Source: Pelagibacteraceae bacterium AG-359-O02 (GTDB taxonomy: Bacteria; Pseudomonadota; Alphaproteobacteria; Pelagibacterales; Pelagibacteraceae). Taken from it: a DNA stretch of 64,000 nt. The stretch spans positions 92,406 through 156,405 of the forward strand of contig QCEU01000002.1 of NCBI GenBank assembly GCA_003280485.1, written 5' to 3'. Shown in pieces: positions 11,245 through 14,432 of the stretch (position 1 is the stretch's first letter; each line of letters begins with the position of its first letter). The translations under genes and the position numbers were made by a program. The notes beneath the pieces were generated by a model. It did not search any database, had not been told where the DNA came from, and saw only the letters and a program-made list of their open reading frames with translations.

Positions 11245-11266
11245 CTTGTGGGGCGAACCCCACAAG
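11245..11266. terminator. GC-rich hairpin between convergent lipoprotein and hsp20 genes, likely hsp20 terminator
   Basis: CTTGTGGGG-CGAA-CCCCACAAG perfect stem (TTCG loop on the minus strand). Confidence 0.65.
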
Positions 11267-11281: not shown

Positions 11282-11728
11282 TTACTTAATATCAATAAGT
11301 CTTTTTTTCTTGTGATCTGGTAAAATTCTTTCACAAGCAATTGTTAAAAGACCATCCTTAAGTTCAGCTCCGTTTACTTTTACATCATCTGCAATAGTAA
11401 AAGATCTCGCGAATTGTCTTTGTGATATTCCTTTGTGAATTATTTCACCATCTACATTTTGATCATCAGATTTATTAAGCTGTTTAGTTCTAACTGTTAA
11501 TATATTATCTTCAAACTCAACCTCGACATCTTTTTTATTAAAACCAGCTAAAGCAACTTCTATTGAATAATGGTCTTTACCAGTTTTTCTTATGTTATAT
11601 GGTGGATAATTTGATTGCATTGTCATGCCACCATTACCAAGCATACTTTCGAATTGGTCGAACATATCGTCAAAACCAATAGAAAATGGTCTTAGTGAGT
11701 TAAAGATAGATAGATCCTTACTTGTCAT
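11282..11728 (-). CDS. Small heat shock protein Hsp20/IbpA
   Basis: Alpha-crystallin domain: YSIEVALAGFNKKDVEVEFEDNILTV. Confidence 0.93.
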   Translation of the reverse strand: MTSKDLSIFNSLRPFSIGFDDMFDQFESMLGNGGMTMQSNYPPYNIRKTGKDHYSIEVALAGFNKKDVEVEFEDNILTVRTKQLNKSDDQNVDGEIIHKGISQRQFARSFTIADDVKVNGAELKDGLLTIACERILPDHKKKRLIDIK

Positions 11729-11732
11729 ATTT

Positions 11733-11783
11733 ACTCCTTTTTTTAAGCAAGTTAATTTATGTAAGCCCCATTAGGCGACTTAC
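11733..11783 (-). promoter_or_regulatory. Candidate ROSE-like RNA thermometer in hsp20 5' leader
   Basis: Minus strand: hairpin GTAAGTCGCCTAATGGGGCTTAC (11783-11761), then ACUUGCUU (11752-11745) pairing with AAGGAGU SD (11739-11733) across an A5 loop with one bulged G. Confidence 0.6.
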
Positions 11784-11790
11784 TTTTTAT

Positions 11791-11818
11791 ATATGGTGAT
11801 TAAATATAAAATTTCAAT
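11791..11818 (-). promoter_or_regulatory. Candidate sigma32 (RpoH)-type promoter of hsp20
   Basis: Minus strand ATTGAAA-N13-CACCATAT, compared with the E. coli consensus CTTGAAA-N11-16-CCCCATNT. Confidence 0.55.
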
Positions 11819-13922: not shown

Positions 13923-14432
13923 ATGAATATTTTTTTTATAACACTGATTATTTTTGTCATTGTATATGTTCTTCTGACTTGGTTTGCTAGGACCTCAGCA
14001 AAAAAAATTTCAAAATTTATAAGAATATTAATTATTTTTTCTGCGATAGTATTGGCCATTATAATGGCCTATGCTGGAAGATATATATTTTCATTACCCT
14101 TTGTACTCGCAATCTTACCACTGATAAAAACTAAAGCTGGAATATCTTTATTTCAACTTCTCAGATTATGGGGTCTTTTTAGAGTTTTAAGAAATTCGGG
14201 AAGATTTAATTTTAATAATTTTAATCAATCAGTTAATAAACAAAGCTTATCCGTAGATGAGGCTTACAAGATACTAAATTTAAAATCTGATATAAAATAT
14301 ACCAAAACCCAAGTAATGCAGTCATATAAATCTATCATGAAAAAAATTCATCCAGATGTAAGCCCTGAGTTAGCTAGGCTAGCCTCAATAGTGAATGAAG
14401 CAAAAGAAATTGTTATAAAAAATATTAGTTAA
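13923..14432 (+). CDS. Membrane-anchored DnaJ-domain protein (TIM14/Pam18-like architecture)
   Basis: N-terminal TM helices and C-terminal J domain with HPD motif (KKIHPDVSPELA). Confidence 0.8.
   Translation: MNIFFITLIIFVIVYVLLTWFARTSAKKISKFIRILIIFSAIVLAIIMAYAGRYIFSLPFVLAILPLIKTKAGISLFQLLRLWGLFRVLRNSGRFNFNNFNQSVNKQSLSVDEAYKILNLKSDIKYTKTQVMQSYKSIMKKIHPDVSPELARLASIVNEAKEIVIKNIS

Follow-up and report, generated by a model that had tools for sequence, protein, structure and literature searches.

A conserved two-hairpin, ROSE-like element in the hsp20 leader of SAR11 bacteria and of marine phages

Does the short leader of hsp20 in the Pelagibacteraceae bacterium AG-359-O02 hide the ribosome-binding site in the cold and release it upon warming? 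We analyzed the window, a stretch of 64,000 nt that contains the only hsp20 copy of the source genome. The minus-strand letters at 11733-11783 are those quoted in a preliminary description, which had proposed an upstream hairpin (hairpin I) and a second hairpin (hairpin II) concealing the Shine-Dalgarno (SD) sequence. Both were borne out in sequence and position, including the single bulged G and the A5 loop of hairpin II (Table 1). The leader folded at -15.7 kcal/mol, compared to -8.9 kcal/mol in shuffles (z -2.84; 1 of 200 shuffles was equally good). Note that, when conservation is disregarded, the window has 6 instances of core plus SD, with 1.2 expected. Thus, the pattern by itself proves nothing, and the proof has to come from conservation.

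Table 1. Features of the hsp20 locus, in window coordinates
Feature	Position	Strand	Sequence or remark
hsp20, small heat-shock protein	11282..11728	(-)	148 aa; PF00011, E 1e-16; start codon ATG at 11728
Codons 2-4 of hsp20	11717..11725	(-)	ACA AGU AAG; synonymously frozen in the 109-gene set
Hairpin II, candidate thermosensor	11733..11752	(-)	ACUUGCUU facing SD AAGGAGU
Shine-Dalgarno	11734..11739	(-)	AAGGAG
ROSE core, anti-SD strand	11746..11750	(-)	UUGCU
Hairpin I	11761..11783	(-)	GUAAGUC(G)CC-UAAU-GGGGCUUAC
Predicted transcription start, approximate	11783	(-)	6 nt past the -10 element; inferred
Sigma32-type -10 element	11790..11797	(-)	ACCATATA (CCCATATA in relatives)
Sigma32-type -35 element	11812..11818	(-)	ATTGAAA (CTTGAAA in relatives); 14-nt spacing to -10 in nearly all relatives
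Terminator-like hairpin 3' of hsp20	11245..11266	(-)	CTTGTGGGGTTCGCCCCACAAG; sequence reading

Leaders were gathered across the genus, the family and the order; the named close relatives of the source are single-cell genomes of Pelagibacteraceae (SAR11). A covariance model, R1, was built from 67 SAR11 hsp20 leaders and used to align 99 distinct leaders, 97 from Pelagibacteraceae and 2 from other families. In this alignment, 98.0% of hairpin I cells were standard pairs, and 8 of the 9 pairs showed changes on both sides. Over the whole structure, 97 cells carried both-sided changes, compared to 26.2 for shuffles and no more than 36 for slid versions, and the covariation score was 0.275 (0.143 shuffled), with none of 500 shuffles as high and slid registers far below. 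Since the R1 alignment was fitted to the structure, an unfitted MAFFT alignment served as the fairer control; here 91.0% of cells were paired and 53 both-sided changes were found against 18.3, again with none of 500 shuffles as high. The compensatory changes that had been sought among related hsp20 leaders are thus present, and the pairing is kept, in both alignments.

Hairpin II hardly varies. CU(U/C)GCU together with GGAG was found in 99 of 99 leaders, and the core differs in only 3 of them, by a U to C change where known ROSE motifs are themselves degenerate (U/C); the proposed placement of U(U/C)GCU opposite the SD in the 3' hairpin is fully in line with this. The outermost pair occurs as A-U, as C-G and unpaired, and is missing in about half of the leaders, the innermost in ~30%. 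Unlike the register preferred by RNAfold, the one originally proposed is the conserved one. The RNAfold register (UUGCUU/GAGUAA) was rejected, as it was paired in 71% of cells and showed no both-sided changes among relatives.

R1 detected one copy in the source genome (E 1e-19); other hits there were noise, the next best at E 0.77. Within the family, 101 of 147 genomes had matches, the strong ones at hsp20 starts as judged by comparing coordinates by eye. The weak family matches that were inspected (E 5e-5 to 0.01) were chance matches in coding DNA. In the second family of Pelagibacterales, the hsp20 leader forms more hairpins, and its core, which faces AAGGAGG, reads UCGCU.

Just upstream of the leader, a search for a sigma32 promoter of the form CTTGAAA-N13-17-CCCCATNT found ATTGAAA-N14-ACCATATA. 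This arrangement is conserved, reading CTTGAAA-N14-CCCATATA in most relatives and ending ~6 nt ahead of hairpin I. The promoter in the window (11818-11790) stops 6 nt short of the first base of hairpin I, and the predicted transcript therefore starts at the candidate thermometer, ~55 nt from the ATG (median among relatives, 55). A start within 11733-11760, which would exclude the anti-SD strand from the mRNA, is not predicted, as the promoter places it upstream, at hairpin I. The terminator-like hairpin behind the gene suggests a single-gene transcript. With promoter and terminator-like hairpin, hsp20 looks like a one-gene heat-shock unit, controlled at transcription and, we infer, at translation. 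A 169-aa protein encoded nearby (window 13923-14432, plus strand) weakly matches the J domain (PF00226; 24 bits against a cut-off of 27.8).

To which class does the element belong? It lies in the 5' UTR of a small heat-shock gene (PF00011), given the predicted start at hairpin I, and hairpin I provides an extra stable 5' hairpin. ROSE_3 (RF02523) was the best of 4227 Rfam families on the leader, matching end to end (1-69) with 22.9 bits (E 0.006). A search of the Rfam ROSE families, as had been proposed, thus upheld the likeness to ROSE along the full length of the best family; membership in the family did not stand, the score being below the gathering score of 43. Leaders of relatives scored 19.7-24.5 bits, every SAR11 leader tested staying below the gathering score, and no match within the window reached the curated Rfam cut-offs. 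As positive controls, ROSE_2 gave 100.4 bits on the leader of E. coli ibpA, and ROSE_3 gave 69.2 bits on a Pseudomonas ibpA-type leader from a phage record. ROSE_3 found nothing above its cut-off in 191 alphaproteobacterial genomes, indicating that this model is too narrow for membership to be judged by absence. By its predicted layout and its core the SAR11 element is ROSE-like, outside the Rfam family as modelled.

Among described systems, the short ROSE-like thermometers of Pseudomonas ibpA (ROSE_3, RF02523) come closest; there, a two-hairpin element behind a sigma32 promoter has been proven to act as a thermometer (PMC3669281). Both have two hairpins, the first of them stable and the second with U(U/C)GCU facing the SD, as well as a sigma32 promoter and a small heat-shock gene. 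In contrast to Pseudomonas, the SAR11 sequence is too distant for the ROSE_3 cut-off, its hairpin II is weaker by the energy model, and it has a hairpin I cap (GCC-UNNU-GGG), frozen codons 2-4 and phage copies. The classical ROSE elements of rhizobia and enterobacteria (RF00435; ROSE_2, RF01832) share the gene type, the U(U/C)GCU core and SD sequestration, but have three to four hairpins (PMC3669281) instead of two. R1 did not match the E. coli ibpA leader.

The energies bear on how such an element might work. In the conserved register, hairpin II had about -4.9, -3.6, -2.3 and -0.7 kcal/mol at 5, 15, 25 and 37°C. Across this range, hairpin I went from -15.5 to -8.3 kcal/mol. Hairpins II of Pseudomonas have -4.1 to -7.6 kcal/mol (PMC3669281). 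As the modelled SAR11 hairpin II is weaker, it may act at a lower temperature, which would fit the habitat. In a nearest-neighbour partition function the mean unpaired probability of the SD rose slowly, from 0.60 at 4°C to 0.75 at 50°C; shuffled leaders concealed the SD more than real ones in this model, and a melting simulation with standard energies showed no sharp switch. The slow opening of the SD and its better concealment in shuffles, both as modelled, are the main evidence against a sharp switch; along with the weak hairpin II, the small predicted switching is the main weakness of the thermometer reading. Note that ROSE hairpins use non-canonical pairs, which are beyond the nearest-neighbour model.

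Taken at face value, the weakness of hairpin II in the energy model would suit a leader without any sensor, in which hairpin I stabilizes the mRNA, hairpin II is too weak to act and sigma32 alone controls hsp20. We consider this highly improbable, given that the anti-SD core, which lies in non-coding DNA, does not vary across genera and is also kept in phages with other promoters. Comparison places the predicted promoter just before hairpin I, with hairpin I as a conserved stem and CU(U/C)GCU complementary to the SD in every genome. The element is real and conserved, and its ROSE-like reading is well supported by the alignments; it probably hides the ribosome-binding site and opens with warmth. 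We consider it likely to be a short two-hairpin ROSE-like RNA thermometer that directly follows a promoter for the heat-shock sigma factor. At low temperature, hairpin II would be shut and the ribosome blocked; upon warming, hairpin II would melt while hairpin I stays, with a probable role as folding guide or in protection of the 5' end. Transcription via sigma32 and translation via RNA melting would then both increase with warmth.

The conserved element may extend into the gene. Codons 2-4 of hsp20 showed no synonymous variation among 109 genes from about seven genera, where entropies of 1.27, 2.06 and 0.84 bits would be expected. They are the only perfectly frozen codons of these genes, although AGU and AAG are minority codons, and two control genes from the same genus had no comparable freezing at their start. 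This argues for a constraint on the RNA (or DNA) beyond that on the protein. Within these codons, AAGUAAG can form 7 bp (one G-U) with the anti-SD strand CUUGCUU, and does so in the best predicted fold at 25-37°C. The leader could accordingly be a bistable switch, in which CUUGCUU pairs either with the SD or with codons 2-4, in a balance that responds to temperature or ribosome binding. In favour of such a switch, warming from 5 to 35°C in the model raised the pairing of codon 3 from 0.14 to 0.32 and lowered that of the SD from 0.41 to 0.31. However, the pairing with codons 2-4 is lost outside the MTSK clade of genera, the actual codons are unremarkable in rank and not the most stable of 48 synonymous encodings, and UAAGGA at this site is SD-like, an alternative cause of the freezing. 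Covariation cannot show here, both strands being nearly invariant. While a second partner for the anti-SD strand in codons 2-4 is possible, for which the models are suggestive only, we regard the bistable switch as an unlikely account of the leader.

Is the element linked to heat shock beyond hsp20? We scanned 241 alphaproteobacterial genomes with R1. Outside Pelagibacteraceae it matched the leaders of 7 hsp20, 3 rpoH (TIGR02392) and 1 dnaK (PF00012) genes, with few unrelated matches. Since R1 was trained on SAR11 hsp20 leaders only, finding rpoH and dnaK supports a heat-shock function independently. In the rpoH leaders of Pelagibacteraceae and the sister family the element was absent, with one weak match (E 0.23).

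These matches also bear on a possible sensing by protein. E. coli IbpA represses its own translation via the ibpA 5' UTR, and this requires R93 and Y34 (PMC10474464). Gene, leader position and the key Arg and Tyr are the same in SAR11: the two residues correspond in the alignment to R104 and Y41 of the window Hsp20, and motif searches found the Tyr in 129 of 129 and the Arg in 92 of 92 matched relatives. The leader could be mainly an Hsp20 binding site for self-repression; aggregates would titrate Hsp20 and the mRNA would open, with misfolded protein as the sensor in place of RNA melting. Self-repression could also add to melting. For SAR11 Hsp20, a protein sensor as in the IbpA system is a candidate reading only. 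The Arg and Tyr are, however, widely kept in small heat-shock proteins, the data at hand on IbpA-type repression concern gammaproteobacteria only, and self-binding of Hsp20 does not directly apply to the same element before rpoH and dnaK elsewhere. We judge self-repression as the main role to be quite improbable.

The distribution of the element in phages was the most surprising part of the analysis. Hsp20 proteins of viral contigs and named phages share up to 62% identity with the window Hsp20, and R1 matched immediately 5' of phage hsp20 in almost all loci searched. Phages with the element include the Pelagibacter phages HTVC008M, Mosig, HTVC103P and HTVC115P, the methylophage Melnitz, and the cyanophages P-SSM4, S-PM2, Syn9, S-RIM12, S-MS29 and P-TIM40. 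In HTVC008M, hsp20 lies beside the genes for sliding clamp, clamp loader, RegA and DNA polymerase and is therefore truly viral. Cyanomyovirus core genes include hsp20 (PMC3037559). Thermometers were not mentioned in the papers checked on phage hsp20 genes, and no paper on a phage hsp20 thermometer was found in the literature searched.

The phage alignment comprised 71 distinct rows, two of them off-target. Hairpin I showed both-sided changes in 9 of 9 pairs (193 cells, 74.4 shuffled) and the covariation score was 0.447 (0.174 shuffled), counts that lean towards the structure, as the set was hand-picked among loci with leader sequence and the alignment fitted to R1. The core was present in 68 of the 71 rows, and several cyanophages cap hairpin I with UUCG. 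Phage leaders carry the same two-hairpin ROSE-like element, whose putative function there is deduced from its structure.

Their promoters differ. TAAATA was found up to 22 nt upstream in 53 of 69 phage leaders (8% in shuffles), a box that resembles T4 late promoters. CTTGAAA-N14-NNTATA occurred as well in 8 of 29 pelagiphage-type leaders against 0.01 expected. In pelagiphages, the hsp20 promoter joins two parts, a sigma32 element like that of the host (CTTGAAA-N14) and, immediately ahead of hairpin I, a T4-late-like box reading TATAAATA or similar. Two separate observations concern viral records: a marine viral contig has a glutamine riboswitch (RF01739, 64.1 bits; 2007-2057) just 3' of hsp20, and the 'unverified' record of Pseudomonas phage Y7 (OQ572409.1), possibly host DNA, has hsp20 with an Rfam-level ROSE_3 leader (69.2 bits).

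A broader proposal is evenly poised between right and wrong in our estimate: that marine T4-like phages of SAR11, methylotroph and picocyanobacterial hosts have a working hsp20 thermometer, in which a late-type phage promoter has taken the place of the bacterial sigma32 promoter or been fused to it, so that viral chaperone synthesis would follow sea temperature, and that the SAR11 element is a two-partner switch reaching into the gene.

In conclusion, no description of an RNA thermometer in SAR11 was found in the literature searched. SAR11 bacteria are among the most abundant in the ocean and have few transcription regulators; a thermometer for cool water would tie temperature directly to their chaperone synthesis. 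That marine phages have the same element suggests a use of temperature-sensing RNA by viruses as well, and isolated phages such as HTVC008M and P-SSM4 make a viral thermometer testable.
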